Source: Brachionus manjavacas
Lineage: Eukaryota > Rotifera > Eurotatoria > Ploima > Brachionidae
Length of the DNA: 64,000 nucleotides
Assembly: GCA_019054805.1 (NCBI GenBank)
Contig: JAHQIY010000009.1
Location: 3,879,787-3,943,786, forward strand
Reading direction: 5' to 3'
The position numbers and the translations under genes are program-made. The notes beneath the pieces were generated by a model, which worked only from the letters and a program-made list of their open reading frames with translations, ran no database searches and was not told the origin of the DNA. Positions 24,623-64,000 of the stretch are shown here, piece by piece. Every line of letters starts with the position of its first letter. Within the stretch, counting starts at the first letter, position 1.

Positions 24623-25381
24623 TTAGTCGTCTAATTGACATAGACCGACTACTCCACGATTAATCCAGTGAGATTCGTGTGTGTCTATGGGAATATTGAT
24701 TGTAAAAACATAATTACTTGAATGTCCAGTGGTGGACAGCTCTCCCCTTCGCAAACTTGTTTTGTATACAGGACATCTATAGGTATTTTTATCATCGGAC
24801 TTTTTCTCTGTGGGTACCAAATGCAAAATAGGTAGAGTATCGAAAAAAATTTTTGGAAACGACTCTCTTAGTAGTTGAGTCTTGGTGCACCATCGAGCTC
24901 CTTGTAAATGAATGCCATCAATGAATGCACCTTCAGCTGGCTTTACTCTCGGCTCAACGCTTTCATATTTAAAAAAGAATTCCAGCAAATCAATGGGTAT
25001 TTTGTGTTTTCGTGCATAGTTCTGCATTACGCCTGTTAAAAACGACTGGGTGAAATAGAAACCAGAAATCCAATAGACAATTGGTGAGCCACGGTCTATC
25101 CACATTTGGAAAAAATTCAGTCTCTTGCATAGATCGGTTATGTAATTTGCCAGCGGTTTCAACGACGGATATGACTTTGAGGCCCACAAGTCTGGTATTT
25201 TGTTCATCAAAATTGAATGAAAAATTTGCTCCAACTCCGGAGTAAGTAATATTTGTCCTTTGATTGCTTTTTTTACGTCATTTAAACTCTCTTTAATGCA
25301 CAACAGAAGATTATTGTATCGAACTAGTTCTTGAGTTAGTACTGTGTTCATTGATTCCGAATATGATACTGGATAAGATAT
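24623..25381 (-). CDS. Dynein exon 12: C-terminal domain and stop
   Basis: Encodes [31 protein letters not shown] [20 protein letters not shown], the [10 protein letters not shown] motif, [20 protein letters not shown] with NYVFTINIP, and ends at a stop after CQLDD. Standard C-terminus for this family. Acceptor TTAAG at 25382. Confidence 0.95.
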   Translation of the reverse strand: MSYPVSYSESMNTVLTQELVRYNNLLLCIKESLNDVKKAIKGQILLTPELEQIFHSILMNKIPDLWASKSYPSLKPLANYITDLCKRLNFFQMWIDRGSPIVYWISGFYFTQSFLTGVMQNYARKHKIPIDLLEFFFKYESVEPRVKPAEGAFIDGIHLQGARWCTKTQLLRESFPKIFFDTLPILHLVPTEKKSDDKNTYRCPVYKTSLRRGELSTTGHSSNYVFTINIPIDTHESHWINRGVVGLCQLDD

Positions 25382-46300: not shown

Positions 46301-49300
46301 AAATTTAAAGCTTTGCTCTTTAACTTAATTTAAAACCAACCAAAATTTTGAAATTTTTTGATAATTTGATAATTTTTGCTTTTTGAATAAAATTCGTATC
46401 TGTTTTCTTCATTTATATCGGCTTTAAGTGAATCTAAACTAGCAAAATGAAGGAAAAAAAAATCTTCTAATTTGATAAAATGTATCTGACTTAATAAAAT
46501 TAAAAAAACATTTTTATTTTGAGTTACATATAGAATAAAAAAAAAGTCTTCTTTTAGCATTTGGCATTTTCCAAGTTTTGAAAAATTTATTTTCTTCATT
46601 TTGATTACCATTTTGAGTATGTCTGCAGTAGCATTTGAATTTAAATTTAATAATTTAAATTATTTTTATTTTTATTTTATGTAATATCTGTAATGTCTAT
46701 ATAAATTCTTTTTTCTTAATCAATTGTACCTATAAATGTAATTAATCATCTCTTATTGGTTTTTATACTATTTTATCATTATTTAATTTATTTTTATTTA
46801 TTTCTTATTAATGACAAATTATTTGAATTACTTTAAATATACTTAAATGATCAATTTGTATAATCTCTCATATTCGTCTTGTACCTCAGTTTCGTCTCTG
46901 TAACTTTTATTGTAGTTCCTTAATTTATCTCTCGATTTTTGCGCAATTAGCTGCCATAGATGGCTTCCGAGTAAGCAATTTAGATGAGTTTTTATTAAAA
47001 AAGCGTTATCGAAAAAGTATTATTCTATTCTTTACACTAGAAGCACTAAACGGGCCTTTATTATATATTTAAAAATTAATTTAAATAATTAATTAATTAA
47101 TTATACTAATAATAATAATCAAATAATTTTAAGTAAAAATTATATTTTTTTTGACATATCAATAATACTTTTAATCTTTTCATTCACTTAAATATTTTTT
47201 GTATTTTTTAATTATTAATCATTTATTAATATCCTTTCAATAATCAAAATTCTAAGTGAGCATAATTTTCATAATTAATTTTAATTGATAAAAAAAAACA
47301 TTTTTGATTATTAATAACTTTATATTTTGTTTATTAAAAGATTATTAATAAATGAATAGTAGTTAAAAAAATTAAATCAAAATATAATTTTTACTCTAAT
47401 AAATACCATATAAATTTAAGGTAAAAAATGTTTTCATGAAATAAAAATCTTGCCAAATTATCACTGAGTAAAATTACTAAAAATTTTTTTAATTTTGTGT
47501 TGATAAAACACGAAAAAAAGCTCGGTTCTTCTATTGTTAATAAAGCTAGAAAAACTTATTTTTTGGAATACTAAGAAATAATTCAAATGCTAAATTTGCT
47601 TTCAAACAATTATTACATCTTTTCCACTGAATATTTGGCTAAAGTTACTTTATCATAAGTCTAAACAAAATAGGCATTTTTGGAGTGTCACATTTTTTAA
47701 AAGATGAAATTTCACGTGTCTTATTTCCTAGCTGATAGATAAATTATCTAATCTGTTGAACAGACATTACAAACTTATGTTTTAAAATCTCTCCATTTCA
47801 ACAACACCAACAAAATGTTATTTATGCATATTTGTGTTTTGCTTTTTTTGAAGCTAATTCACTGTAAAATTCAGACTATTTGTCCGAACACAATCGACTC
47901 ATTTGACTGCAAGTGCTATGCAGATTTCAATTATGTATCTCAGCAATGTCCGTATGGTCTAACGCAGCTAGATTGTCGACTAGATAACAAAAATTTTACA
48001 TTTTTTGTTTCAAAATTGAGCAAAGCCTGCTATTCTTCCTTAAATTTAGAGAATGTGAATTCGATTGCGGCAAATGCCTTGGAAACAATAAGCCTCGTTT
48101 CTTCGGCTAGTCTTGATTTTAAAAAAGTCTCTCAAATAAGCTCATTTGCTTTTGTGCACATCAAAGATTCAATAAAAGTCAAAATAGATGCTGATTTCAG
48201 CACAAGCACTCAATTTGAACCAAAATGCTTTTCGCTCATCAAAAATTTAACTTTAATTGAATTCAAAAATTTTAATCTTCTCGAATTGAAAAGCGATTTT
48301 TTTCAAGAATCCCTCATCGAAACAATTCTTGTAAATAGATCCAAGTTTTGTGGCTTCAACTGCTCCCATAACACGACCACAATGGTCAAACATTTATTCA
48401 TTAAAGACAGCTTAACAAACGGGGTACTGGACTACACAATGCTCGGCTTTTTTTATTCACTTCAAACAGTCACAATAATTAACTCGGGCCTAGAAATTGT
48501 CCATGACATATTCGACAAGTACGATCAACTAAAACGCTTAGATCTTGGTCTCAACTCGATCAGATCTATTGATTTCAACAATCAATTGCTCGAATTGAAT
48601 CTATTCAATAATCCTGTTGAAAATTTCAGCTTAATTGGAAGGAAACTCAAATTTTTGGGCCTAAAATCAACCTTGATTGAAAAATTCTCAATCGATGCAC
48701 CTAATTTAGAGCACATGGATCTAGCTGACTCTAAACTTGTGACCAAATTTAAAAATTTAAACTCTCTTTTAGACCAAATAGAGGGCAAGAATGCAAATAG
48801 TTTAGAATTGATTGACATGTCGCATGACGAAGTCTACATGGATGATAAATTGTTTGCCAAAGAGCATTTAGAGAAAAAGAATTGCTTGTGGAATGGGCTG
48901 ATGAATAGGACTTTTATAAAAATAAACAAGCATCATGGATGCGACTGCTCGACTATTTATTTGTACAAAAATTTAGATTTAACTTTGCAAGAGATCAGAT
49001 TGGTGCCGATGTGCTATGCAAAATTGTTGATTGAGTCCAAAGTGCAACAACGAGAGAATGAATGTGCGCTAAAGGATGTGTATTCGAATTGTTCATTTGC
49101 ACGTGTTAGTACTGTGGTGCCAGTTACACATGGAACAAGAGATCAAGAGCTTTTTGTGAGAAAAAAGATTGTTTGGGAATTTACTGTGCCCGTTACTGTC
49201 GCAATATTTGTCTCTAGTATTATTTTGCTGACATTTTTTTTCCTAAGAGCAAAGATAGAATTTTCGAAAAAGTTTGACAATGTTTACCAAAGTAGTGATG

Positions 49301-52300
49301 CCAAGCGATCAAATTTCACCGAACAAAATGAAATGGAAGAAATATTGACTATTTCATCAAATAGTATTCTGGTAAGACTAGATCAAAATGTTTGATTTTG
49401 ATGAAGAAAATAAGAAGTTGGCACTTCGAAAGTAATTACCAAAAAGACGAGTCATTTGAAGTGAAATTTCACTTTAAAAAAAATAACTTAAAAAAAAAGA
49501 CACTAGTAAGACGAAAAACAAAAAAAAATTCTTTTAATTACCTCTAATATTAAATTTATTATCTTTTGTATTTTATTTAAAGTTAAAATACTAAAATTTT
49601 AAAAATTTATTTTTAATTATTAACATTGGACTGAACGAAACAGAAAGTTTAAATAAAATTTTTAATTTTTGATCATTTATTTAAGAATACATGAACTTGT
49701 TAAATTGTAGAATATTTAGAGGGAATTTAAAGTATTGTAAAATAAGATTAAAAAAATATGTTCAACTTTTAATTCAAAAGCACTGCTAATCAGTTTGCGA
49801 TCGCAGTTTTTAATTTGACGATTAAAGTTTTTTAAATGACAATAAATTGGTCACAAATATAGTAGGTCATCATATAGAAACCACTTCATTTTTTTGAATA
49901 TTTGAATTTTTCTAGGAATAAAAACTTAATTGATTACAGTTTTAAAAAAAATGATAAGATAATAAATATCCTATGCTTATTATTTAAAAAAAAAAATTTT
50001 CCAGCTATTGATTTTTAATTGATTTTTCTCAAATCTTTTTTGACAATGAACCTTTCAAAAGTTATGCGAGAAAAAAATTCTAAATTTTCCCATTATTTTT
50101 CACATTTTTGATCATACAGTAAAAGCCGGTTAAAGTAAATTCCTATTTGCACAAAAAAAAATAATTAAAAAAAAGGGCCTGACCGGGGATCGAACCCGGA
50201 ACCTCTCGCACCCAAAGCGAGAATCATACCACTAGACCATCAGGCCTTCATTTAAATTATAAAAAAATATTATTTCTATTTTACATTTAATTTTAATTAA
50301 AGACTTATAATTGATAGATAATTGGCCACGCATCAAACAAGTAAGGGCTTCGATGGTGTAGTGGTTATCACATCTGCTTTACACGCAGAAGGTCGCGAGT
50401 TCGATCCTCGCTCGAAGTATATTTTTTTGTATAATTATTTTTTGATTCAGTGGAAAATCAGCCAAAAAAAAGACATCACATAATTAAATTTTTTTAAGTG
50501 ATTGAACCCGAAAATTTAAAGAAAAAAAAAGCCAAAAAATTTTCTATAAAAAATTATTTACTTTTATTTGTTGAAAAAAAATCACTCTATCATTTGCATC
50601 AACTAATCGATCCCCAAACACTCGATAAACTTCATGAACCCTTAAATTTCAATTATTCGCTTTTTTCAAATATCTTAAATAGACTTTATTCATCTTACCA
50701 AAGTCTAATTAGAGTCATTGAATTTTCGTGCATTATTTCTTCACTCCTAATATCGTTATGCACCAAATTTCCCATTTTAAAAAGTAATATTCCCTTTTTT
50801 AAAAAAATTTTTAATAAATAATTTTTTTTCTATTCAAATTAAATACATTTATAACGCGAGAAAAATCTCTTGAGTTAAACAAATAATGTGACTTAGACGG
50901 AGTGGGTAGAAATATTTCCAAAACTCTATTGTAAATATGTAAAGTAGCATCTATGATCATCATTGGTGAGTAATGATGAAAATCATTTTCTTGCTCGTGG
51001 ATGTCAAAATGCCATTCTAAAACCGGATGAAATATTGTTCTGAACAAATCATCATTAAATGACTCAATTGAGATAATGTTGAAATGTCTGAGTAAACGTG
51101 TTGTTACGTCATTTCGACCAGAACCAGGAGGCACGAACGCTCCAACAAGCAGGCTTTTTTTTATTTCCATGATCGTGTTTTCTTTGGGCTCGTAGACAAA
51201 TTTATGATCGATTACACTTCTTAATAGCTCGATTGGAGGCTGAGCTCCATATTTTTCCAAAGAAGGCATGTTAAGATCATCAATAAAGAATATTGATGTG
51301 CGATCACCTTCAGCAGCATAAACACCTTTTTTAATCCGCTTTAATTTGGACATAATTGTATCTTGGGTTTGAGAGCATGTTGTTCTTGCCGAAAAATTTA
51401 TGCTGTTGACCAAATAACGACCCTGGGATAATTGGTTAAGATAGTTGGTCATTATCGATGTTTTGCCAGTACCTGTATTCCCAATTAACAAAATGGGAAA
51501 GTTTTTCATTAATAATTTGTCCAAAAAGTATGTTTGCCTATACGTTTCTACAGTTGTGACAAAAACTTCAACTGGCTTTGAATAAAAATTGAAATCAAAG
51601 ATAAAAAAATTTTCAAATTTTTTTTAGGTAAATTAAATTTTTTTTTTTGAATTTAATTTTGATATACCTTGATTATGTTTTTGTTAATTTAAAGAGATCA
51701 TTTCTAAAATTATCTTAATTTATTTCATATAATTAAATAAACAACCTGAAAATTTATTTAACAAAGAAATCTTTTTCAATAATCAGAAAACGGTTTTGTA
51801 AAGTTCAGTACAAAAGAACAGAACAAAGTGTAAAAAAATAAAATAATTTTTTTTCTAAAAGTCCAAAATTAGTACTGTGAATGCAAAATGGTGCAACATT
51901 CAAAGTTTCATCATTTGTAAAAGTCTTCTAATGACGTGCAAAATTTCTGCAAAATGCACTTTACTCGATATTATTGAAATTTAATTTCTGCAAATTTAGC
52001 AGACCTTAATATTTGATGCAACTTTGAATGTTGCACTATGTTGAATTTACAGAACTAAGTTTAAACCTTTAGAAAAAAACTTATTCAATTTTTTTACATT
52101 TTTTTCTGATCTTTTTATCATTTTGTATTGAATTTCACAAAATAAAAAATAATCTTTTGTAAGGAAACATTAAAAATTCTTTATTTTATTAAGCTTAAAA
52201 AGAGATCAGTAAAGATTAATTTAAAAAAAAACTCACAAAAATTGTAAAATAGTAAAATCATCCCGTTTTTTATCCCGTTTTTTATCCCGTTTTTTATTCC

Positions 52301-55300
52301 GTTTTCTTATTAAATGGTTTTGATAAATTAAAAAATCATTCTTTTTTCTTAATTAGATTTTAACATAAAATTTTTGCTCTACAATTATGTCAGAATTTTT
52401 TCTTCTATTTATTTGTGTAGCTAAAGCTTCATGTTTCGAATTTATTTTTATTTTTCTTGCTCACTGCAAGAAATTTAATTTATCAATAAGGGCATTAATA
52501 AACAACAAATGGCATCAAAAATTGATCATTAACTTCAAGATGCCAATTTGTTATTATTGTTTGTAATTTTTATGAGTAGATTACGATTTGAACTATTTTC
52601 TCAGATTCAGGCTAATTTTGGGCTAAAATTATGGGCTAATTTGATGTGTAGCCTTCCTTTTTTGACTTACCAACAAATTTTACAAAAAATAATCAATTAA
52701 ATAAATTAACAAAAATAATGGAAGAAAACTCCATAAACACTGGGTCAGCCATTCAAAGGACTCCTCAAAACACCATAAAACAGAATGTTTGAATGATTTC
52801 AGAGGCTTCAAAACGGCCAAGATCTAGGACAAGTTCAGATCAAAGTCTTTTAGAACCTCGTTATGTTGAAATGACTGAGTTCTTAAATCTGAAAAGTAGA
52901 ATCACAATTTTTAAGGACCTTGAATGGATTTTCAAGTCCAGAGATCGTGCTATCGAGGATCTATCAAATAAAATTGTCAAGAACGAACAGCTTTTTGAAA
53001 ATTTTTCAAAAAGACTAGAAAAAATGAAGAATTAGGAAATTGAAAATTCAAATGAGATAGAGAGGCTACACACAAAAATCATAGATGAATTGACTACTTG
53101 ACTGGACGATCTGAGAATGCCACAACAATGTGACAATGGAAAGTGAAATTAATGCACCTAATCAGGAAAAAAGATGATCGCTTGTGCCTACCAAACTTAG
53201 CAAAACTTGGCGAAAATATTTTTTATTAATTTTTACATTTAATTTAATTGCTTGAACAATAAAAATAATTCAAAATCTTACTTTCATTGTTTTGGGAATG
53301 GTAAGAGTGTCGACAAGACTTGACCATTTGACCCATAAACCCAAATTGCGATGTACATAGACATACTCGTAAACAGTTAGATTATCTCTTGGTATGAGTG
53401 CACTTTTGCCAAAATTAAGATCTCTTGGTTTAGGATGCGACTTGTTGACATTGTGAATTAGAGCGAGAAAAAATTCCGAAAATTTATTTCTTGAATCGTG
53501 TTTTAGAACAGCACCAATTGACCAAACTATGCCCAAACAAAAATAAGCCACTAGCATATCTTTTTTGTCTTCTTGAACTTGCTTTTCATGTGAAGTTGGC
53601 TCTTTTCGGCTCAAGATGTCATCATCACACAAAGCGGTCTCATCGTCCTGCTCTTGGTCAAAATAATTTTCCATGTCGTCCATTAGACAACTGAGCAGTC
53701 TCAAAAACGAATTTGTCAAATGCATTTGTCCAATGTTCAAATATTGGCGCAATGAATTGGTAACGTAAGTGAGACACGGCTCTACTAGCCACTCGAACAA
53801 ACACTCGAGCATTTTAGCATGCTTTCTGTTCAAATGCTTGGGCATTTGGTTTTTGAGCCAACATCTTATCAATGTCCTAATGCCCAGAGACATGGGATCT
53901 AAGTAAATCATGCCACATCGGCTCACAGTGGCTGGCGATGCTTGTTCCAAATCTCTAGCCTCGAATATCATGTTCTGTTTTAGACTCATTTTGATTATCT
54001 CTCCGCTCATCAGACACAATTTTTTGTTGTCATCAAGCACTGTGTTCATGTTTTCGATCCAAATGGCGTCTACAGGTCCGTCGAACACAATCCACTTGCG
54101 ATTCGAATCGCTTGTCGAATGTGTGCGAAATATTTTAGCCAAGACCCCATCGTACCATTCGTGAGAAATGGCATCAAATCGACCATACAAATTACCGATA
54201 TGAATCGATTTTGGATTTATGATGTCATAATCAACTGCTAGTTCAGAGCCAGCGCCATTTTTGGCCATTTCACTCAATGCTCTTGCCAATGATTTGTAAG
54301 CACTTGTCTTGCCGGACAAACTGTCTCCAATGATCATTAAGCCATGCCGAATTGTCAACATATCATACACTTGTAGTGTTCTTTCCAAAAACCAGTCTGT
54401 AGGCTCCAGCTTCATGCTTTTGAGACAGTGCTTGAGATATTTGTCAAGTTGGTCATTGTCGGTCTTTTTTATTTTGACATCTGGAAATAAGTCGGATATG
54501 ATGCCTTCGAAAAGAGTGATGTCTTCGGGCAGAAATTTTGGCAAATTAACATCTCTAATTGATCTGAGTACAAGAACATGTTCTTTTTCGTTTAGATACT
54601 TTAGTTTTAGTTTTCCGGCAGCGGATAGAACAGTCTTGACCGCTCTCATGCCGTAGTCGTAGTGATGCTGGGATGAAAGTTGTTCGGAGCAAAGTTTGTA
54701 GGTGGATACAATTTTGCCTGCTAGTGAGCGCGCTTCGACAAAGCCCATTGAGTAGAGGGATATTTGAGCTATTAGTTGATAGTCTGGCACCATCATGGCC
54801 ACAGGACGAAATAGGACCTTTAAATTGTCCGGAAGTTCGGATCTGCCCGCGTAGCCAGGATTCATGGTAATGAATATTGAACAAGTCGGGTCCAATATTA
54901 GCTCTAGATCTTCGAACATGAAATAGACTTTGTTTTGGGCTATGGCTCGTTGGATTGTTTGAATTTGTTGTGCCACTACAGATAGGACTTCTAGTTCAAT
55001 ACGATTGAATTCGTCAAAGCAGGCCCAAGCGCCTGATTGAGACAAGCCTTTGAAAAATTTGCCCATTGCCTTGTAGTCGAGGCCGTCCGAACAATTGAAT
55101 ACAACGCATTGTTTGGCAACTGCTTTGGCCAAGTCTTTGCATGTTTCGGTCTTGCCTGTGCCAGCAGGACCTTCAGGTGCGCCGCCTAGATTTAGTTGAA
55201 TAGCTGACATTAGGGTTCGATAGCAACGGTCTGTCAATGGAGTTATTACCAATCGGTTCGTATTGCCTAAATACTCATATGCATACTCAATAAATGTGCT

Positions 55301-58300
55301 AATTATTCTAACGCATATTTTCTCTTCTTCCCAATAGTAGCGCAATTGACTCATCCATTCAAAGTCGTGGACGTGGTTCACACTCTTTTGATGCAAACAT
55401 TCAACAACATCTCGAGCTTAATCAAAATTATTTTATTTTTTTTTTTTTTTCTCAATAAAGTTCAACTGCATCAATTCTAAATATCATGAAATATCTTGGT
55501 ACAATTTTTTTTTTATTTTCGGAATCAATAAATTAATTAAGGCTTGCGATTAGTATCAAACTGGCCAAATGCTATTATTTTTCAAAATTTAAGCTGTTTA
55601 ATTTTAAAATTTGATTCTCAAAATTAAAATGATGTATACATTTTTTTAGAAAAATATGATTTATATGTATTTTAGCATAGAATTTTAAATAATGTAAATT
55701 CTAGTAAACTAAACTGAAATTAATAATTTTAATTTATTTATTTATAAAATTTTAAAATTTTTTTTCTTATATAAATTTTATAATTTTTTCTATTATTGCG
55801 CTTTCAATTTTAATGTAAAATTATCCATCATTTGTACTAAACTTATACATATTCAAATTTAGTTTAATTAATTTTTAGGTGAAATAAGAGTTAGCTTTTT
55901 CTATCAGCTTACTCTTATTTGACCTAAAAATTAAACTGTCAGTAATTCCTTCTGTCAGTATTTTTCTATGTGTTATGCGCAAGGAGTAGGTGACCATGTC
56001 ATAGGTGACCTCCTAGTAGGGCACCTCCGCAAGCTAGTCTTACTGTATATATAATATACAGTACAGTCCGTTTATAACGAACACGCTTATAGTGAAAATT
56101 CGTTTTTAACGAAAATAAATTCTATATTTGGCAGAACAAGAATCTTTTCAATGTAATTTCTTATGGATATAACGAAGTTCGGATATTACGAAAATTCGGT
56201 TATTACGAATCAATTTTTAACAAATATTAGTGAATTTCTCTTGGTTTATAATGTAGTTAGGAAAAAAAATATTTTTGGTTTCTTTGTTTTTGTTTGATTT
56301 TAAATAATAAGTACTAATTTATTAATTACTCAAGTGATGACGAATCAGATAACGAATTTTCAAATGTTATCGAATCATTTCAGGACGAAAATATATCAAA
56401 TCAACAAGCTTTAAAATTATTTGATCAATTAAGAAAACATCTTTCAAAATCTACACACAATTTTGAATCGTCTATTGAATTTGGAAAGCATTTAAACCGA
56501 AATTTTAGGCTTAATGGTCAAACAAAAAACAATATTGGATTATTTTAAAAAATAATTTTTTTGATTTCTAATTTATGAATTATGATTTATTGTACTAGAT
56601 TATGCTTTTTAAATTAATAAAAACCTTAAAAAATAACATTATTTTCTCTTATTTGGATATAAAGAAATTCCTTTATAACGAACTGCTTTTGGATTCCCCC
56701 AGTGACTTCGTTATAACCGTACTTCACTTTAATAATTATCCCTATTCTATCCTAGTGGATAATTCAACATTACAATACTCATAGTTCTTCAAAATAGAAA
56801 ATTATAAATCAGTTAAATGTATAAATAGCAAAGCTGAATTCTCATGATCGCTTAGTTATTAATAATAATAATAAAATAATAATGGTCTAACTGTAGCTTA
56901 TATATATTATTAATTTATTTTTATTATTTTATTTTTATTATTAGCATTATTATTGATAACTAATAGAGCATGAGAATTCAGCTTTGCTATTTATACATTT
57001 AACTGATTTATAATTTTCTATTTTGAAGAACTATGAGTATTGTAATGTTGAATAAATCGATTTGACTAAGCTTAGCAATCTTGTTCCTCTAATTTTTATT
57101 AAAAATTTTAAACATATCTCTTGGCTTTCTAAACTTATTTTAAATCTTTTATCAAATAAGAATATTTTAATAATGAATTTTATTAGATAACATTATAAAT
57201 ATTTTTATTTTGAGTAAAAATTTTTACAAAATTCAAGTCCCATGGACAAATTGAATTAACAGATTAAAACAATATTACAGAAAAAAAAATTTTGGTATAA
57301 TTCTAACAAATTTGGGATAAAAACTTAAAACATGTATAACGATATTCGATTTTCTAATACATTAAACTAAATATCAATGTTAATAAGTTAAAATTTGAAA
57401 AAAAAGTGTAAGGATATACTGATTTTCATTATTTAAACTTGTTGTCCTAATAATTAGACTAAACTGATTCTTATTTATATTTAATTCGTAAGATGCAATT
57501 TTTTAAATTTTAATAAAATAGCTTTAAGAAGGCATATGAAAACTTAACCATAATCCATTAAATTAGATGGCATTAAATTTGATTTTTATATTAGATCAGT
57601 ATTTTATTAATCAATTAAGTAATTTTAAGAAAAAAAAAAGGAATTTTTATATTTATGAAGTAAGACTAGCGAATAAGGGTAGGGTTAGGGTAAATACATA
57701 AAGATTGATGAACTTTTAAGAAAAAACAAAATAAAAAAAATTACCGTGAACATCAAGAACAATTAAAGCTTCTATTGTTATCCTGGTCATGCTATTAAGT
57801 TGACCACGTACCATAATTACAATCTCTTCCAAATTTTTATTGCATTCATTCAAATAATTTTCCAAATCTTTGTTGCCAGTTAAAACCCCAGTTACTTCTG
57901 TGGTCCACTTGACCATATTTACCGCTTGAACAATTTGTCCAGCAAAGCTTGATATCCACTCGAATCTAGACATGATGTAGACTTGTTTAATTGCATTGAC
58001 CGATTCCAAGTGTAAACTTTCCTGCATTTCTTTTTCAACTTTGAGAAGCCATTTCTCCACCAAACCCTTGGAATCGTTTGGCTTGATCTTGTTCTTAAAG
58101 CTGACAAATTCGTTTTCATCAGAAAGCATTCCTTCAATTATCTCACCCTCAAATTTTAACAACTTAATGCCTTCAAAGCACTTTTTCAAATGTGGTTGAA
58201 CTCGAAGTGGATCTTTGGTTTCAGATAAAATTTCCAAAAGCTCATCATTTGACAAGAAAAAAAATCTGGGAAAATAAAGACGCTTATCTTCCAGATAGTA

Positions 58301-59749
58301 GTTTAAGCCTTTGTGAATAGACTCTAATTTCGAAACGGCATACTCCAATTTGTTAAGTATTCTGTCCTGATTTATAACACTGAGAGCCCGTGGATCTTTT
58401 ACCGATTCCAACATTATTTCTTTCCATGAACGATCGACTCCTTTAAACATTTCGCCTTCTAGCGGAATTTGTTGCCGAATGTCCTCGTGACCAAATATTG
58501 GCTCCAAATATATCCATGAAGACTGAAATCTTACCCAATTGTCCAAAATTTTTCTCATTCGAATCTAATTTTAGTTTTTTTATTTTTTATTTTAAATTAA
58601 TTTAACAACATTTTATTTTTATTGAAATCATTTTTTCTAGCTTTTAAATAAAATTTCAAAATTTTTTTTTTTAGCCATTTGGTTATTCAGCTCTTTAATT
58701 TTTATATTTTTCTGATCAAAATTTATATAAATATTTATAATTTTTATTAAACCACATTTCCTGATAATTATTAATTTAATTAAATTAATAAAATCTTTGT
58801 TAGATTAATTCAAATTTTCATATTAAAATAAATTCATAACCAATTTTTCAAATAAATTTACAAATTTGATTATTTAACAACTGATTTTTCCATAAGCCTA
58901 AAGATAATCAAAAATTTTTAATGGGTGTTAAAATAAAAAAATAAAAAAGCTGAACTACGAAATTGTAAAAAAAAAATGAGCAAATTTCTTTAAATAAATG
59001 ATTAAAATAAAAAAAGTTGTCATTCTAAATAAATTACCAATTCGCTTTCCCAATCGAGTACTTCACTTTTAAACGCTGTTATAAATGGAGAATTTTTCAT
59101 AGCGGTAGTTTTGACACAATGATCGTCCAGCAAAGCTTCAATATCATCAAAAGAGGATAAAATATACAAATTTTCATTTTTATACTGCATAAAATTGAAA
59201 TTCATATTTTCCCACGATTGTTTCATTTTTTTGAGTGCTTGTTCCAATGAGTATTCTTTGGATGCAAGTGTACTTATTTCAGTTAATTCGTCTAGCTTTG
59301 ATCCAAGTGTTTTCGAATATTCTAACATTTCCTTTAAGCTTATAGCATCATTTGGATTTATTTCGGCTTCGAGAATTTCATTAATCAAGTCCCAATGTCT
59401 TGACTTGAGGCCAGGATTACAAAAAACTTGAATAAATGGCAAATTGGCGCGAAATTTTTCCAATTTATGCTTGACAGTTAACGAAACTCTCAATGGACCT
59501 TTTTGATCTGAATTTTTGAAAATTTTTGTCAATTTAAAGCTAGTCTTCCACATGTCTTTGATATCATGTTCAACGCTCTCGGGATCAACATTATCTATCG
59601 AACTAGCGAGCCATTTGTCTTGCAGAGCAAAGAACCTGCAAGTCAATGACCATAATGTTTCATAAGGCTCTTTTAGTACTCGTATATCCTCCAGAGCATT
59701 GAATTCGGCATCCTCAAATATTTCCAGTATTTTCTCATCTCGGATTATA
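24623..59749 (-). CDS. Axonemal inner-arm dynein heavy chain (DNAH3/7/12 type), N-terminus not found here
   Basis: Motor chain of ciliary inner-arm dynein; hydrolyses ATP to slide axonemal microtubules. Twelve exons join in frame with GT-AG sites: 59038-59749, 57745-58564, 53282-55416, 50847-51575, 50699-50793, 50562-50640, 41724-43125, 37694-39327, 33978-34138, 33298-33916, 27348-28148, 24623-25381. Together they give about 3314 residues. Order: linker (1-510), AAA1 with GPAGTGKTE and CFDEFNR, AAA2 with [12 protein letters not shown]3 with GNTGTGKTS and [12 protein letters not shown]4 with GVGGTGRS (the usual Arg variant), stalk coiled coils around the microtubule-binding domain, AAA5, AAA6, and a C-terminal domain ending [15 protein letters not shown]. 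The AAA1 stretch [20 protein letters not shown] is typical of single-headed inner-arm chains, which are about 4000 residues. Some 700 N-terminal residues are therefore missing. Introns range from 53 bp to 7.4 kb and host many other features. Confidence 0.9.
26552..26820 (+). pseudogene. Cys-rich C-terminal fragment of a retroelement polyprotein
   Basis: Inside a dynein intron. Plus-strand frames read [20 protein letters not shown] and, after a frameshift, [20 protein letters not shown] followed by HGGNSSC. The C-x-C...C-x-S-R-C-H-x-G spacing is a tail found on some transposon proteins. Broken by stops. Confidence 0.4.
27348..28148 (-). CDS. Dynein exon 11: AAA6 end and C-terminal domain start
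   Basis: Encodes [69 protein letters not shown] and [13 protein letters not shown]. All are highly conserved in axonemal dyneins. Acceptor TTAG at 28149; donor CAA|GTAAGA. The 5.1-kb intron upstream holds the LTR element. Confidence 0.95.
29215..29345 (+). repeat. Left LTR, 3'-truncated
   Basis: Nearly identical to 32298-32424 through GAAACGGCCGTTTC and TTATTTAGATTT, then departs into internal sequence. Confidence 0.75.
29352..31896 (+). pseudogene. Ty3-like gag-pol reading frames, broken
   Basis: Gag knuckles [14 protein letters not shown] and [14 protein letters not shown] (29352-29759). Protease [12 protein letters not shown] near 29780. Reverse transcriptase remnants include DIRKAF and [20 protein letters not shown], and the catalytic YxDD region is altered (MTDFILIFG). 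Next comes the connection region (30265-30580), RNase H region ([31 protein letters not shown]), integrase zinc finger ([20 protein letters not shown] then CIICQ), and a late integrase part ([20 protein letters not shown]). The integrase core is mostly deleted. Not functional. Confidence 0.8.
32298..32484 (+). repeat. Right LTR, full length (187 bp)
   Basis: Starts TGTGGTGTAG and ends CTCTACACA, with TG...CA termini and a short inverted repeat. Contains AATAAA-like motifs at 32340 and 32427. Confidence 0.7.
32485..33297. other. Dynein intron remainder, AT-rich
   Basis: Contains GCAATTTTGCATTAAAATGC-type short repeats near 32640-32770, otherwise nothing recognised. Confidence 0.4.
33298..33916 (-). 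CDS. Dynein exon 10: AAA6, first part
   Basis: 61-bp intron before it. Encodes [60 protein letters not shown] and [11 protein letters not shown]. These are standard AAA6 motifs. Donor ATT|GTAAGT. Confidence 0.94.
33978..34138 (-). CDS. Dynein exon 9: short AAA5/AAA6 exon
   Basis: 161-bp exon. Encodes [10 protein letters not shown], then [20 protein letters not shown] and [14 protein letters not shown], the conserved helix pair between AAA5 and AAA6. Acceptor TTTAAG; donor AA|GTAATT splits an Asn codon. Confidence 0.9.
34312..34810 (+). mobile_element. CR1-like LINE 3' fragment (copy E)
   Basis: Plus-strand frames give a decayed INDLPE start, [13 protein letters not shown], then [20 protein letters not shown] with [20 protein letters not shown]. 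This is the usual C-terminal part of CR1-like LINE reverse transcriptases and differs from the family at 59.8-62.2 kb. Lies in the dynein exon 8/9 intron. Confidence 0.65.
35043..35160 (-). repeat. Possible LTR end with primer-binding site
   Basis: On the minus strand, GGCGTGACA is followed by TAATTGGTGGCAGAGGTGG. This looks like an LTR end next to a primer-binding site. No matching second LTR or coding region was found nearby. Confidence 0.25.
35450..37060 (+). mobile_element. LINE copy D: ORF1 joined to the 3' tail
   Basis: The 5' part is an ORF1 protein. It has an RRM-like stretch ([39 protein letters not shown]) and two CCHC knuckles ([28 protein letters not shown]), then an acidic tail to 36240. 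After about 36540 comes the same 3' tail as copies A and B ([34 protein letters not shown]). Endonuclease and reverse transcriptase are missing. The end GAAGTAGCCCTAGCTCGGTA lies near 37030. Stops and shifts occur throughout. Confidence 0.65.
37082..37350 (+). mobile_element. Second LINE C-terminal fragment
   Basis: Reads [20 protein letters not shown], frameshift, then [14 protein letters not shown], the end of a CR1-like reverse transcriptase protein. Directly follows copy D. Confidence 0.5.
37694..39327 (-). CDS. Dynein exon 8: microtubule-binding domain, stalk coiled coil 2, AAA5
   Basis: Starts [19 protein letters not shown], then a microtubule-binding domain ending near [20 protein letters not shown] Lys/Glu/Leu-rich return coiled coil follows, then AAA5 with [20 protein letters not shown] and [14 protein letters not shown], and [13 protein letters not shown]. 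Ends WFINLYKH. Donor GTAAGT; boundary accurate to about one base. Confidence 0.92.
39328..40110. other. Dynein intron, AT-rich
   Basis: Nothing recognised before the MITE cluster at 40113. Confidence 0.4.
40113..40611. mobile_element. Cluster of MITE-family pieces
   Basis: Left-end sequence (GGTTTTG-x-GAAATTCAG-x-AC) occurs at 40113 and again at 40315. Inner arm sequence TGATGCAACTTTGAATGTT lies near 40222, and CAACATTCAAAGTTGCATCA at 40565. Two or more copies seem nested or broken. The repeat at 40479-40540 sits inside. Confidence 0.5.
40479..40540 (+). repeat. Short repeat, copy 1 (CCTCCGCAAGCTAGTCTT core)
   Basis: AGGCGACCTCTCATGTAGG followed by CCTCCGCAAGCTAGTCTTGC. A related sequence lies at 55971-56048. 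GC-richer than surroundings. Confidence 0.5.
41142..41305. mobile_element. MITE-family copy, half element
   Basis: Starts TGGTTTGTGAAATTCAGTAC and contains CAACATTCAAAGTTGCATCA, then GTCTTCTATTGACGTGCAAA as in the 51.8-kb copy. The right end is absent. Confidence 0.5.
41724..43125 (-). CDS. Dynein exon 7: AAA4 and stalk coiled coil 1
   Basis: AAA4 P-loop [17 protein letters not shown], then [37 protein letters not shown] and [10 protein letters not shown]. The rest is a long coiled coil ([19 protein letters not shown] onward) that forms the first stalk strand. Donor after the first base of a codon at [11 protein letters not shown]. Confidence 0.94.
43370..43740 (+). pseudogene. SWIM-finger remnant of a MULE-like element
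   Basis: Plus-strand frames contain [12 protein letters not shown] and, later, [20 protein letters not shown]. This resembles the C-x-H end of a SWIM finger and the basic PGRPK tail of MULE-derived proteins. Broken by stops; inside the dynein exon 6/7 intron. Confidence 0.35.
44190..44261 (-). tRNA. tRNA-Pro (UGG), copy 1
   Basis: 72 nt on the minus strand. Acceptor stem GGCCTGA/TCAGGCC, D arm GGTCTAGTGGTATGA, anticodon stem CTCGC/GCGAG with anticodon TGG, T arm GTTCGATCC; ends in discriminator C with a downstream T run. Lies in a dynein intron, same strand as dynein. Confidence 0.95.
44352..44424 (+). tRNA. tRNA-Val (UAC), copy 1
   Basis: 73 nt. D arm TGGTGTAGTGGTTATCA, anticodon stem CTGC/GCAG with TTTACAC loop (anticodon TAC), T loop GTTCGATCC. 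Acceptor GCTTCGA pairs with TCGAAGT with one G:U. Divergent from the tRNA-Pro 90 bases away. Confidence 0.93.
44807..45382 (+). pseudogene. Degenerate copy of an unnamed repeat-borne protein (copy 2)
   Basis: Reads [20 protein letters not shown] then [34 protein letters not shown], and, after stops and a shift, [20 protein letters not shown]. The first and last blocks match those at 21.4-21.7 kb on the minus strand. The frame is interrupted several times. Domain not recognised. Confidence 0.4.
45390..47814. other. AT-rich part of the dynein intron
   Basis: No gene or RNA recognised. A 93-codon minus frame at 46330-46611 has no motif and is probably chance. Confidence 0.4.
47815..49395 (+). 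CDS. Single-exon type I membrane protein with leucine-rich repeats, nested in a dynein intron
   Basis: 526 residues. Signal peptide at 1-17 ([17 protein letters not shown]), then a Cys-rich cap ([16 protein letters not shown]). Weak leucine-rich repeats follow at about 200-320, clearest at [29 protein letters not shown] and [15 protein letters not shown] Cys cluster ([12 protein letters not shown]) lies near residue 380. There is one membrane helix at about 455-477, then a 49-residue cytosolic tail with no kinase or TIR domain. Many N-x-S/T sites. This suggests a surface receptor or adhesion protein; ligand unknown. It lies entirely within the 7.4-kb dynein exon 6/7 intron on the opposite strand and is intron-free. 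It could be a retrocopy, but the frame is intact over 526 codons. Confidence 0.75.
   Translation: MLFMHICVLLFLKLIHCKIQTICPNTIDSFDCKCYADFNYVSQQCPYGLTQLDCRLDNKNFTFFVSKLSKACYSSLNLENVNSIAANALETISLVSSASLDFKKVSQISSFAFVHIKDSIKVKIDADFSTSTQFEPKCFSLIKNLTLIEFKNFNLLELKSDFFQESLIETILVNRSKFCGFNCSHNTTTMVKHLFIKDSLTNGVLDYTMLGFFYSLQTVTIINSGLEIVHDIFDKYDQLKRLDLGLNSIRSIDFNNQLLELNLFNNPVENFSLIGRKLKFLGLKSTLIEKFSIDAPNLEHMDLADSKLVTKFKNLNSLLDQIEGKNANSLELIDMSHDEVYMDDKLFAKEHLEKKNCLWNGLMNRTFIKINKHHGCDCSTIYLYKNLDLTLQEIRLVPMCYAKLLIESKVQQRENECALKDVYSNCSFARVSTVVPVTHGTRDQELFVRKKIVWEFTVPVTVAIFVSSIILLTFFFLRAKIEFSKKFDNVYQSSDAKRSNFTEQNEMEEILTISSNSILVRLDQNV
49400..50170. other. Dynein intron between the LRR gene and tRNA copy 2
   Basis: AT-rich, no feature recognised; the LRR gene's 3' UTR lies somewhere here. 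Confidence 0.4.
50175..50246 (-). tRNA. tRNA-Pro (UGG), copy 2
   Basis: Identical over 72 nt to the copy at 44190-44261, with the same anticodon TGG and conserved flanks. Confidence 0.95.
50347..50419 (+). tRNA. tRNA-Val (UAC), copy 2
   Basis: Identical over 73 nt to 44352-44424. The spacer from tRNA-Pro is about 10 bases longer than in copy 1. Confidence 0.93.
50562..50640 (-). CDS. Dynein exon 6: short AAA3 lid exon
   Basis: 79-bp exon after a 58-bp intron. Encodes [18 protein letters not shown] then VIFFQQIK, the conserved (W)VHE-x-x-RVF-x-DRL motif. Joins in phase to DCVEKVFK of exon 7, 7.4 kb away. Confidence 0.92.
50699..50793 (-). CDS. Dynein exon 5: short AAA3 exon
   Basis: 95-bp exon after a 53-bp intron. 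Encodes [10 protein letters not shown] and SMTLIRLW, matching the GVLL...LIRLW segment of dyneins. Donor TTTG|GTAAG; Trp is split across the next intron. Opposite-strand coding potential here is an antisense shadow. Confidence 0.88.
50847..51575 (-). CDS. Dynein exon 4: AAA3
   Basis: Begins [20 protein letters not shown] after acceptor CAAAG at 51576. Contains Walker [14 protein letters not shown], Walker [12 protein letters not shown] and arginine-rich [19 protein letters not shown]. Ends RDFSRVIN before a GTATTT donor. Confidence 0.93.
51792..52142. mobile_element. MITE-family copy, full length (351 bp)
   Basis: Left GGTTTTGTAAAGTTCAGTAC, right inverse TTTTGTGAAATTCAATACAA. Inner arms CAACATTCAAAGTTTCATCA and TGATGCAACTTTGAATGTTG. 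Non-coding. Confidence 0.6.
52260..52312. repeat. Short tandem repeat
   Basis: Four copies of a 13-base TTTTTTATCCCGT-type unit (last copy ATTCCGT). Confidence 0.6.
52718..53150 (+). pseudogene. Coiled-coil fragment, possibly LINE ORF1
   Basis: An ATG at 52718 opens [18 protein letters not shown]; after a stop the frame runs [17 protein letters not shown], then a Lys/Glu/Asp helix ([20 protein letters not shown]) that predicts as coiled coil. It resembles N-terminal ORF1 regions of LINEs, but no zinc knuckle follows. Inside the dynein exon 3/4 intron. Confidence 0.3.
53282..55416 (-). CDS. Dynein exon 3: AAA1 and AAA2
   Basis: 711 whole codons after the split Ala. AAA1 Walker [10 protein letters not shown] is at about 55171-55148, Walker B in [10 protein letters not shown], sensor region [21 protein letters not shown]2 has [17 protein letters not shown] and the [20 protein letters not shown] motif. 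Ends IPKTMK before GTAAGA. AAA1 is the main ATPase site and looks intact. Confidence 0.95.
55861..55937. repeat. Near-perfect inverted repeat
   Basis: Arms ATTTTTAGGTGAAATAAGAG and CTCTTATTTGACCTAAAAAT around a short loop; small foldback or MITE end. Confidence 0.5.
55971..56048 (+). repeat. Short repeat, copy 2 (CCTCCGCAAGCTAGTCTT core)
   Basis: AGGTGACCTCCTAGTAGG then CACCTCCGCAAGCTAGTCTT; related to 40479-40540. Both copies end in (G/A)CTGTA. Confidence 0.5.
56064..56724 (+). mobile_element. pogo/Tigger remnant with transposase C-terminus
   Basis: Left end CAGTCCGTTTATAACGAA after a TA; right end in reverse AGTACGGTTATAACGAA. Further TATAACGAA-type motifs lie inside. A frame at 56329-56548 reads [19 protein letters not shown], then [14 protein letters not shown] and ends at a stop, like the acidic tail of Tigger transposases. 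The rest of the transposase is gone. Termini differ from the element at 2.8 kb, so it is another subfamily. Confidence 0.65.
56762..57053. mobile_element. Foldback element with perfect 85-bp arms
   Basis: Left arm 56762-56846 and right arm 56969-57053 are perfect inverted copies (left begins ATTCAACATTACAATACTC). The 122-base centre pairs partly and is rich in TAATAA. Non-coding; lies next to the pogo remnant in the dynein exon 2/3 intron. Confidence 0.75.
57060..57744. other. Dynein intron, AT-rich
   Basis: Nothing recognised except a short AGGGTAGGGTTAGGG at about 57676. Confidence 0.4.
57745..58564 (-). CDS. Dynein exon 2: linker, second part
   Basis: Acceptor TTAG|ATTCGA at 58564; donor CACG|GTAATT at 57745. 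Encodes [20 protein letters not shown], the [14 protein letters not shown] motif and ALIVLDVH. The last G pairs with CT of the next exon to make Ala in VHARDVVE, a conserved junction. Confidence 0.9.
59038..59749 (-). CDS. Dynein exon 1 of those found: linker, first part
   Basis: Encodes [32 protein letters not shown] with [12 protein letters not shown], and [18 protein letters not shown], the conserved linker of axonemal dyneins. The donor is TTG|GTAATT at 59038. The acceptor at 59750 (TTGAG|TATAAT) is the best candidate but weak, and decayed LINE sequence lies within about 60 bases of it, so the true left boundary is uncertain. Confidence 0.8.
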
Positions 59750-59814
59750 CTCAATTTAAAAGGTACATAAGGTAGTTTAAGGATTTTAAAAATTGGACAG
59801 TTAAAGAACACAAG

Positions 59815-62200
59815 AAAAAATTACAGGATAGCAATTAAACAAAGAAGTAGGGTATTCGATGAAACGAGATTCGAAACCTTTTCGGTATTGATTTACCAGT
59901 CTGATTACCGATGGGACATAATGACTCAGTCCAGCCCTAACATACCTCTCACTCAACTCAAAAAGTCGATTCGAGACTGTTAGAAGTTTTAATTTGTTAA
60001 AAGCCTCTTGATGTAAAATGCAAGAGGGAGTATCAAATTTAAGTTTGAGAATGGATCGAACAGCTGAGTTTTGAACTACTTGTAGTCTTTTAGTGTTTGT
60101 TTCAGAAAAATAATTTAGGCAAGGGAAAGAATAGTTTAGAATAGACCCAATTAAGGATTTATAGAGGTTACCGAGTGTTTTATAATTAAGACCCCATTTT
60201 TTATTTGAAACGATTTATATTAAGTTGAGCCTTAAACTACAACGTTATTTTATTTCCTCCGCCATTGGAGGAAAGGTTAAACCTGAGTCAAACTAAACGC
60301 CGAGAAATTTAACTTCTTTCTGATTATCGAGTTTATTTCCATGATTTTCGAAGTCTAGGTTGTATATTTTGAAAATACCATTTAACAAGACTTTCAACTG
60401 AAATTTTCATTTTCCATCTGTAAAGCCATTCTTCTAATTCTTTGAGGTATTTATTAATCTTGTCTTCAATGTTGCTCTTTTTATTAAAAATAAAAAATGT
60501 AACCAGATCCTCTGCAAAAAGGAGAGAATAGTCGTTATTTGTTTTGTTCCGTTTTGGTACATTATTTATAAAAATACTGAACAGAAGAGGACTTACTACT
60601 GAACCTTGAGAGACTCCCGCAGTTATATGGTATCTTTCACTAACATGACCATTAAAGTTTACCTTGAATACCCTAGATTCAAGGAATGACGTTATCCAAT
60701 GAATCAGATAATTTGGTAAATTCATTTTAATTAACTTGAAGATTTACCCTCGTGCCATACCCTGTCGAAGGCTTTTGAGATTTCAAAAAATAGGCAGCAG
60801 ACTTTTTTCTTTCTATAGTAAGTTTCGACAATTTTTTGGATAAGAAACATAAGGTTGTCAGCTGTTCGTCAGTGTTTTCAGAATCCCGATTGTTCTTGAA
60901 TTATCAGAGAGTTTCTTTCAAGGAAATTGTAAATTCGAGTATTAATCACTCGTTCAAGTAACTTCCCAAGGCAGCTTGTGATACTGATAGGTCGATAATT
61001 AGGTGGGTCTTGTGTTGGAGATTATTTCTTTTGGATCATTGTTATGTATGCGGTTTTACCAAGCACTAGGAACTCTACCTTGTTCTAGACTTGTGTTAAA
61101 AAGGAACGTAATTTCGTAAAGATTTTTTAGCATTATGTTATGGATTTGGTCAGGACCTGCAGCAGCTTCTTCGCGAAGTTTTTTTAGTGCGTATATTAAT
61201 CCTGTCATCTTTATTGGTTCGTAAGATTGGTTTCGTAAATTTTTAAAAAAGAAATTTTTAATTAAATCATTAACTTCACGGTCTTTATTCGGGTCAATTA
61301 AGTCAGCATTAGGACAAAAGGGAGAGGCCGAGAAATCTTCGAAAATTTTCCCTTTTTCTCTATTGGTTTTGTATTCTGTATTATTCAAGATTAAAGTAGG
61401 TATTAATCTTGACCCTTTTTAATTCCTTAATTTATTAATTTTCTTCCAAAAAGGCCTGCTTGACAGGGGATTTTTGCCAATTTTATTAATAAACTGGAGC
61501 CAATTTCGGTTCCAAAATTCCTTGAGTCTAATACGAAGCTCTGAAGTCAGCTGATTAAATTTTATTTTAAATATTTGGAAGCGAGTTTTTTGGAAATTTC
61601 TCCTAGTTTTTCTTCGTTCTTTAATCAATATTACTATGTTCTTTAGCAAACTTGATTTGGAAATTTTTTGTGATTGAAATTTTTTTGTGACTTTTGTGGG
61701 CTGCATTTAGAATCTTTTGAGTAATATGTTCATTGAGCTCGTCTACGTCTTTTACTAGAAATCTAAGTTGGTAATTAGGTAAACTAAGAATTTCGCGGAA
61801 TAACCCCCAATTGGCTTTTTCGCCTAGACATCCTATTTGTTTGGTCTTTGCATTTAGATCACCCCCAAGGATAAAATTATTACATTTTTTTGAGATATTA
61901 AGAAAAAGTTCTAAAGGGGCGAATTTATTAGGTGGGTTATAAAGGCTGAAAAAAAACAAAAGACTATTTTTTAAGTTAATTTTAATACAGATTAATTCAG
62001 CTGAAAAATCGTCGAAAGAATGATCTTGAACAAACTCGATTCCCTCCTTAACTAATATTGCTACTCCTCCTCCATTTTTATTGCGAGCCTTGACTAATGG
62101 TTGGTAATTTTTGAAATTAAAATAAATGTTTGATTCACTCGGATCAATTTTTATTTCGTTGAGCAGAATAACATTAGGGAATTTCTGAGTCAAAAAAGTT
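59815..62200 (-). mobile_element. LINE copy F, most complete, decayed
   Basis: Minus-strand order: APE endonuclease (VILLNEIKIDPSESNIYFNF, FFSLYNPPNKF, FILGGDLNAKTKQIGC) at 62193-61750; linker (ELRIRLKEFWNRNWLQF, NPLSSRPFWKKINK) at 61706-61419; RT entry (LREEAAAGPDQIHNIMLKN) at 61388-61056. Motif A (FFEISKAFDRVWHEG) is near 60780, and GVSQGSVVSPLLFSIFINN plus a changed catalytic box (LLFAED for FADD) lie at 60725-60333. The 3' tail ([29 protein letters not shown]) reaches about 59830. Many stops. Its usual 3' end (GAAGGAGCTTTAGCTCGG) is missing: the copy ends against the dynein exon. Confidence 0.75.
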
Positions 62201-63030
62201 CTAAAAGTTTAATCCTACTATGTAAATGAAAACAGCTTTAAAATTATTGTCATTTTTTTTTCTTTCTTTGTCATTGTTAAAAACAGAACTAATTTGATTG
62301 TTTTGAACAAATTTCGTCTTTAAGGCTTTTAGACTGTCTTTTTAGATGGTAATGATTGCAAAACTTATTTTTTTTGATATACACATTGGAGAATCCCTCC
62401 TGACTACGCCAGCACCCTCTACATCTAAATTACATGTCTTGTCAACATTATTACACAGTTTATCAAAATGATGATGTTTGCAATGTACTAAAACCCGGCA
62501 TTGTGAATTTTGGAACAAAATATAATACAGAGTTATTGCAGAGACTAATTTTGGGTGGTACAAAGTTTGTATCATCCGATACATTTTGCGGAACAATTTT
62601 TAAACTCATAGAAAAATAATTGTTTCAATTTGAAATTTTTATTTTTGTACTTTCCTTTAAAATTGTCAATGCCCTACAAACCTTGAGTATATAAAAAAAA
62701 TTTAATATATTTATAATTAAATAACATCCCAAAATTCATTAGCTATAATTTAACATTTATTAAATCAACTCTAAAAATTTCCATTTTCTTAGGAATTAAT
62801 TTCAAACTTTTTTCAGAAACAAAAAAAGTTAAATTAATACTAATTTAAATTGTAAACAAAATGCTTGAGATCCCTGGGTTCTTGTATTGACTTGATGTTT
62901 CTAAGCAACTCAATATCAATTTTTTGGATTGCATAAAGAATCTATTTCTAAATGTGTCTTGAGTGTTTTGTATACACTTATTACTTGAATAAAACCAAGT
63001 TGGTTTATTTGATGTAAAAGCTTTAAAATA
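62200..63030. other. Unassigned stretch between the LINE and the plus-strand dynein-like gene
   Basis: A 61-codon plus frame at 62434-62619 (MSCQHYYTVYQNDDVC) has no family I recognise. Must contain the promoter of the 63031 gene; no TATA box was clear. Confidence 0.35.
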
Positions 63031-64000
63031 ATGAGCACGCAAAATCATCGTCCAACTTTTATCCAACACTTTCCGCCTTTGGACTCGAAACAAAACGAAA
63101 TTAGCAAAAATCCAAAAATAGTCAGTCGTGGCGCACTCACTCTTGCCACTCCGTCTAATCAAATTAAATTTCATCGAAACGCCAGTGACTTGATTGCAAA
63201 TAATTATTCACCTCAAGCAAAAGACTTAAATACCCGTTCCATACACGACCTGAACAAGAGTAGTCAAAGTTGGCAAAATTTTCACACTAATTCAATTGAG
63301 AAGAGCAACACTTTTTACCATGGGTGCTGGGGTTATTCGGAACAAACAGCTCTTAAGCTTCCTAAAATAGAAGACAACAAAGAGGACACCAAATCTAATC
63401 GTTTGGCAAAATTAAAAGGCTTGAAATACATGACTTCATCGAGAGCATTAGTTTCCAAATTCAAAAAAGAAAAGAGCAAACAAAAAGCAATTTATGTTGG
63501 GGACGAATCTGCTGCTCCAAATAAATTAGAAAAACTCTTTTCATTTGTTCTAAGCGACAGTGATAAAAAGACAAAGTCTGAAAAAAAAAATGATGTTTTA
63601 TTAGATAATTATGAATTGAGTGGAATTGAAATTGAAGGCGACAATGATTTTAAATTTATGCCTTGGTACACTTCGACTCATGGCTTGACTAGGCCAAATT
63701 CTCCTGACAAACAAACATTTGTTCGCTATCAAAAACTACTAAATGATTCAATTACAGAATCTATGCTGTGTCCTTTGTCAGATGACATTTTGAACAGTAT
63801 AAAAAATAGAGTTAATAAACAAATTTTGATTAATGAGTTGAATGAATCGGTGATAGATTTTCAAGCATCTATTAGAGATCACTTTATCTGGTCTGTTAAA
63901 AAATCTATTCTAGACTATATTCTAAAGGATGAAAATGAACAAGAAAGACTTGGAGTGAGAGTTGTGAGCAAGAAAAGTGTGTCGGGAGGAAGATTTTTTG
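63031..64000 (+). CDS. Dynein heavy chain N-terminal region, runs off the window
   Basis: From the ATG at 63031 the frame is open for 323 codons to the last base. The first 230 residues are hydrophilic and poorly conserved. At about residues 285-312 it reads DFQASIRDHFIWSVKKSILD followed by YILKDENEQERLGV, the block typical of the N-terminus (before the linker) of DNAH1/3/7/12-type axonemal dyneins. Family N-termini of this kind precede the linker by several hundred residues, so the gene should continue right of the window. It is on the opposite strand to the dynein at 24.6-59.7 kb, which lacks exactly this part. It is either a second dynein in head-to-head order or the displaced 5' end of the same one. 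Confidence 0.7.
   Translation, partial: MSTQNHRPTFIQHFPPLDSKQNEISKNPKIVSRGALTLATPSNQIKFHRNASDLIANNYSPQAKDLNTRSIHDLNKSSQSWQNFHTNSIEKSNTFYHGCWGYSEQTALKLPKIEDNKEDTKSNRLAKLKGLKYMTSSRALVSKFKKEKSKQKAIYVGDESAAPNKLEKLFSFVLSDSDKKTKSEKKNDVLLDNYELSGIEIEGDNDFKFMPWYTSTHGLTRPNSPDKQTFVRYQKLLNDSITESMLCPLSDDILNSIKNRVNKQILINELNESVIDFQASIRDHFIWSVKKSILDYILKDENEQERLGVRVVSKKSVSGGRFF

Follow-up and report, generated by a model that had tools for sequence, protein, structure and literature searches.

Dynein heavy chain coding sequence lies on both strands near the end of a contig of the rotifer Brachionus manjavacas, in a stretch of 64,000 nucleotides referred to here as the window (bases 3,879,787–3,943,786 of contig C9, JAHQIY010000009.1, in assembly GCA_019054805.1, which comprises 114 Mb in 61 contigs). 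A motor and linker are read on the minus strand, an N-terminal exon on the plus strand, and a decayed long interspersed nuclear element (LINE) stands between them, joined directly to the linker exon. A fault of sequencing or assembly is the more probable source of this flipped dynein join, and a gene that is truly split in two the less probable one. We infer that the two pieces are parts of a single gene, and that the join came about as an artefact (an inverted chimera at a poorly covered contig tip) rather than by a chromosomal inversion; the original gene order is inferred as well, and the choice between an artefact and a real inversion is a judgement. A previous sequence-only reading of the region had left three options side by side (two head-to-head dynein genes, a real inversion splitting one gene, or an assembly misjoin at the LINE); a breakpoint is now supported and one split gene is favoured, with two genes less favoured.

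A sharp breakpoint near the contig end

The dynein exon and the LINE meet at 59758/59759, where the switch from one to the other occurs within one base and the dynein side contains no LINE sequence. A genome search with the element listed 48 other matches, from 40 scored of 2692 candidates. The homology of eight other copies to the window element stops exactly at 59759, and all eight, which were chosen for reaching this base, continue past it into the 3′ untranslated region (UTR); two of them (on contig C7) are probably one duplicated locus and one (on C22) continues for only ~25 bases before differing. Seven further copies also continue through the breakpoint, having been picked for holding the 3′ UTR (40 listed), so that they are not an independent count. 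Normal LINE insertion is not known to yield 3′ truncation. Since the LINE is cut in its 3′ UTR exactly at the join, it was not inserted here and instead forms one side of a join. The intact 3′ end of an ordinary LINE insertion was not found at the site, and insertion of the LINE into a dynein exon or intron was rejected because the element lacks its own 3′ end. The position 59758/59759 is a sharp breakpoint and not a LINE insertion. Both dynein pieces are open, while the LINE is interrupted so that seven open segments with changing frames remain.

These results agree with the earlier view of a LINE that has lost its 3′ end as if cut at a breakpoint, while the distance of about 60 bases that had been given between that end and the dynein exon is reduced to one base. 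The option of a misjoin at the LINE has to be amended, since the join does not lie inside sequence common to both sides. The absence of LINE sequence on the dynein side, together with the short end of the LINE, gives the join the look of a chimera or of a non-homologous rearrangement rather than of repeat confusion.

Contig C9 measures 3,943,786 bases and physically ends, on the right, at window base 64000, so the assembly holds no sequence to the right of it. The join sits 4,242 bases from this end, and a random point would fall within ~4.2 kb of a contig end with a chance of ~0.5% (122 × 4.2 kb / 114 Mb). Low coverage is common at contig ends, and one bad read can create the tip. A palindrome left by a missed adapter at the contig end was considered and rejected, the tip not being the reverse complement of its flank (tblastn against the window).

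The motor and linker on the minus strand

Coding blocks running from 59758 down to 24626 matched the Pfam families DHC_N2, AAA_6, AAA_7, AAA_8, MT (stalk), AAA_9, Dynein_heavy, AAA_lid_11 and Dynein_C; for the blocks below 33977, Pfam was the sole check. The minus-strand piece is a dynein heavy chain in which the linker, AAA domains, stalk and C-terminal domain are all present. It can be followed up to the linker and then stops, as previously described: six tail and linker queries from the DNAH3 and DNAH7 of this genome, run with tblastn against the minus strand upstream of 59757, gave nothing above chance. The N-terminus is missing, as had been claimed, but the figure of about 700 residues was too low, since alignment of the linker exon begins at residue 797 of PDB chain 9fqr_Xx or at residue 844 of 8j07_g3, which leaves ~800–840 residues absent. 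The best PDB match of this exon is 9fqr_Xx (residues 797–1027, E 4e-51), followed by the DNAH3 chain 8j07_g3 (residues 844–1074, E 2e-48) and DNAH7 (E 2e-41).

At the upstream edge of the linker exon, residues 30–152 of a 152-aa exon of the DNAH3 gene on contig C7 align with window positions 59757–59383 (33.6% identity, E 1.5e-23, tblastn). The alignment is weak over the last dozen residues before 59757, and the AG at 59751–59750 could serve as an acceptor, leaving 9 intron bases before the join. By eye, all seven splice donors from 59038 to 33977 start with GT and all six acceptors from 58558 to 34138 end with AG; splice borders are stated for 59038–33977 only, the last three blocks being given by the limits of their open reading frames. 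Six stops occur in the 2473 minus-strand residues aligned to the C7 gene, all in one block (51581–50562). By eye, these stops lie within two short introns that flank a small exon in this block.

In a tree of 15 linkers of this genome, the window gene groups with the C7 DNAH3 gene (at ~6.03 Mb) with a support of 0.84, and its branch is longer than that of the C7 copy (~1.0 vs 0.44). The group stays when a linker from contig C8 (2.36 Mb) is added as a sixteenth row, the C8 linker falling outside it, and in both trees no other tested linker joins the two. A linker fragment on C28 was dropped from the 15-row tree (140 aligned positions), and the short linker fragments on C23, C28, C29, C34, C41 and C8 (0.24 Mb) were left out of both final trees. 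With moderate support, the minus-strand piece thus appears closer to DNAH3 than to DNAH7, DNAH12, DNAH1 or DNAH6.

The chain 9fqr_Xx is listed as ‘putative malate dehydrogenase 1B’, while in alignments this chain of 4069 residues behaves as a DNAH3 heavy chain. It was treated as DNAH3, its printed alignments being close to those of 8j07_g3, and the listed name is probably a label slip.

The N-terminal exon on the plus strand

From the ATG at 63031 a frame of 323 codons stays open to the contig end, which would be expected by chance in one frame with a probability of ~5e-12, given the base composition. No Pfam family was found in it up to E 1. In phmmer searches DNAH3 ranked first (E 1e-7 and 7e-7), followed by DNAH7 (4e-4 and 7e-3), which bears out the dynein-type N-terminus proposed earlier for this frame. 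The alignment with DNAH3 (8j07_g3, E 1e-7) consists of two collinear stretches, each weak alone (residues 27–71 with 82–126, and 222–312 with 223–314), and the N-terminal exon of the C7 DNAH3 matches the window at 63103–63243 and 63703–63972 (tblastn). Beyond itself, DNAH7 and the C7 DNAH3, the exon matches two weaker places in the genome, and no second DNA copy of the 63031 exon region was listed outside the part that holds a miniature inverted-repeat transposable element (MITE). The exon is likely, though not certainly, of DNAH3 type, judging from these similarities. The coordinates of the features are collected in Table 1.

Table 1. Features of the window in the region of the dynein join, with strand and basis of assignment
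Feature	Position	Strand	Basis
DNAH3-like axonemal dynein heavy chain: linker, AAA domains, stalk and C-terminal domain, without N-terminal tail	24626..59758	−	Pfam, PDB matches, linker trees, splice borders
Linker exon; coding similarity reaches 59757; possible AG acceptor at 59751–59750	59038..59758	−	tblastn; donor GT at 59037–59036
Breakpoint: dynein exon joined to 3′-truncated LINE	59758..59759	none	LINE copies elsewhere
Decayed LINE with endonuclease and reverse transcriptase remains, without the last ~150 bases of its 3′ UTR; 5′ limit approximate	59759..62208	−	Exo_endo_phos, RVT_1
Palindromic MITE-like repeat, both termini present, left arm shortened	62496..62673	none	genome copies, termini
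DNAH3-like N-terminal exon with start codon, 323 codons, cut by contig end	63031..64000	+	phmmer, tblastn
Right end of contig C9	64000	none	C9 = 3,943,786 bases

A second DNAH3 and the missing middle

The DNAH3 gene on C7 carries, all in one orientation, an N-terminal exon open over 309 codons, a 382-codon middle exon corresponding to residues 331–701 of 9fqr_Xx, two short tail exons, a linker and a motor; it was read short of its C-terminus. Having its own N-terminus and motor, this copy is the partner of neither window piece. Used as a genome query (E 10), its middle exon found itself, two DNAH7 pieces, a weak dynein piece on C3 (E 0.015) and a chance match on C32, with no second copy, and residues 331–701 of 9fqr_Xx found only the C7 DNAH3 and DNAH7 at the same threshold. 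The C32 match (6113–6562, E 0.056) was rejected as the missing middle exon, its open reading frames resembling by eye a decayed transposase. Within the window, middle-tail queries gave nothing above chance (tblastn). The tail that would lie between the window pieces (~DNAH3 residues 315–840), linking the N-terminal exon and the linker on one strand, was not found in the assembly.

One gene or two, artefact or inversion

Among solved dyneins DNAH3 is the best match for both the linker exon and the N-terminal exon of the window, and the two pieces cover non-overlapping parts of it; since the C7 DNAH3 also has an N-terminus and a motor of its own, one split gene is favoured over two genes. The likeliest account, held tentatively, is that of one intact DNAH3-like gene whose inverted order is a library or assembly chimera at the contig tip. 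Under it, the minus-strand motor and the plus-strand exon would be the two ends of one fast-evolving DNAH3-like gene that exists beside the canonical C7 copy. In the animal the N-terminal exon, the middle tail exons (~DNAH3 residues 315–840), the linker and the motor would follow one another in one direction, with the LINE upstream of the gene and oriented against it. A chimeric join at the tip of C9 would link the linker exon to the LINE 3′ UTR, and from there to its end the contig would hold the LINE and the N-terminal exon in reverse. Most chimeras reported from amplified DNA are inverted joins that have lost the intervening stretch (406 of 475; PMC1855051), and the window join is likewise inverted, between two segments that were probably near each other, with the stretch between them lost; however, those chimeras were counted in reads from an amplified single Escherichia coli cell, whereas the library behind the window may not be amplified.

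Several results weigh against this account. The similarity of the N-terminal exon to the C7 DNAH3 is weak (E 0.034 and 0.40 in its two stretches), and over one stretch the DNAH7 N-terminus of the same genome is the better match (E 7.7e-5). The linker is 45.8% identical to that of the C7 DNAH3, compared to 41.9, 42.9 and 42.7% for DNAH7, the C3 gene and the C4 gene, and the sixteenth linker (C8, 2.36 Mb) cut the support of the DNAH3 group from 0.84 to 0.65, which slightly lowers the case for one gene with a chimeric join and slightly raises that for two genes. A very diverged middle exon could have escaped the searches, as the window gene evolves fast; as a gauge of their sensitivity, the start of the window linker was still found at E 1.5e-23 with the 152-aa C7 exon. 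Finally, most of the chimeras in PMC1855051 share 2–21 bases at the join, a feature for which the window join is not comparable, the unjoined dynein sequence being absent.

The order observed (motor and linker on the minus strand, the cut LINE, then the N-terminal exon on the plus strand) would follow if the linker exon and the LINE 3′ UTR had been brought together by one inversion, and equally if by one inverted chimera; under both, the middle exons are expected further to the right on the plus strand. A real, recent or polymorphic inversion, perhaps of 10–20 kb (a guessed size), with breaks in or beside the linker exon and in the upstream LINE 3′ UTR, is possible but rather unlikely. It would have parted the motor from its promoter, N-terminus and middle exons and inactivated a DNAH3-like copy on this haplotype, and the contig would end nearby because two arrangements coexist; a sharp breakpoint whose dynein side is free of LINE sequence agrees with it, as do the position of the N-terminal exon, nearest to the join as a single inversion predicts, and a C7 DNAH3 that could carry the function. 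On the other hand, no decay was seen in either piece where checked, while the LINE is ruined, so that a real break would be young or tolerated; the join lies at a contig tip, the searches of the assembly did not turn up the middle exons, and none of the seven LINE 3′ ends inspected, among 40 listed, begins at the breakpoint on its 5′ side as a reciprocal junction would. Two head-to-head genes are improbable; here the plus-strand gene would extend beyond C9 into a separate tail and motor, and the N-terminus of the minus-strand gene would be lost or misplaced. Over part of its length the N-terminal exon is as close to DNAH7 as to DNAH3, the grouping of the motor with DNAH3 is moderately supported, and C9 ends where the plus-strand gene could go on; but this arrangement requires both a missing motor and a missing N-terminus, where one gene requires a missing middle only, it still requires the breakpoint at 59758, and the pieces are just 3.3 kb apart (the LINE, the MITE and spacer).

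That the halves are expressed from opposite strands, with their RNA trans-spliced or as two polypeptides, as in Giardia, is highly improbable; like two separate genes, it calls for further assumptions. For the split dyneins of Giardia the joining is established in RNA, whereas the window case is known here from DNA alone. The split dynein genes of Giardia are joined by trans-splicing (PMC8494341), and the window likewise has dynein heavy chain coding parts at separate genome places. Besides this precedent, both halves are open where checked and the splice borders of the motor look intact, all of which would suit such a gene, but the join is at a contig tip and whatever follows the N-terminal exon lies past the contig end. 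No trans-spliced split dynein of an animal was among the literature matches listed, which is no proof of its absence in print. Hardly any weight can be given to the further idea that an inversion produced a split animal dynein whose halves are kept under selection through trans-splicing or two-chain assembly, as a counterpart of those of Giardia.

Other features of the window and genome

A genome search with the MITE-like repeat between the LINE and the N-terminal exon (62496–62673 in the window) scored 40 of 237 candidates and listed 75 other matches, and many copies with paired arms occur in the genome. It was rejected as a second breakpoint, both of its termini being present. An open frame of 547 codons at 47752–49395 on the plus strand lies opposite to the motor gene, between two of its coding blocks; by eye its start is hydrophobic and a stretch close to its end looks membrane-like, and no Pfam family was named for the 527 residues from 47812. 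Short DHC_N2 fragments (profile ~1–158 or less), all with in-frame stops, were seen on C23 (four rows), C28, C29, C34 and C41, and the frame just upstream of the C28 fragment resembles by eye the C-terminus of a LINE reverse transcriptase (DUF6451 in Pfam). These fragments on small contigs may be dynein pieces carried by repeats.

Implications

Should the join be an artefact, which is the judgement made here, the final 4.2 kb of C9 are unfit for calling an inversion or a gene loss. A real join would mark a fresh break of a motor gene and would make it possible to test whether the animal can dispense with a second DNAH3-like copy; were the split gene also functional, it would represent a split dynein in an animal.

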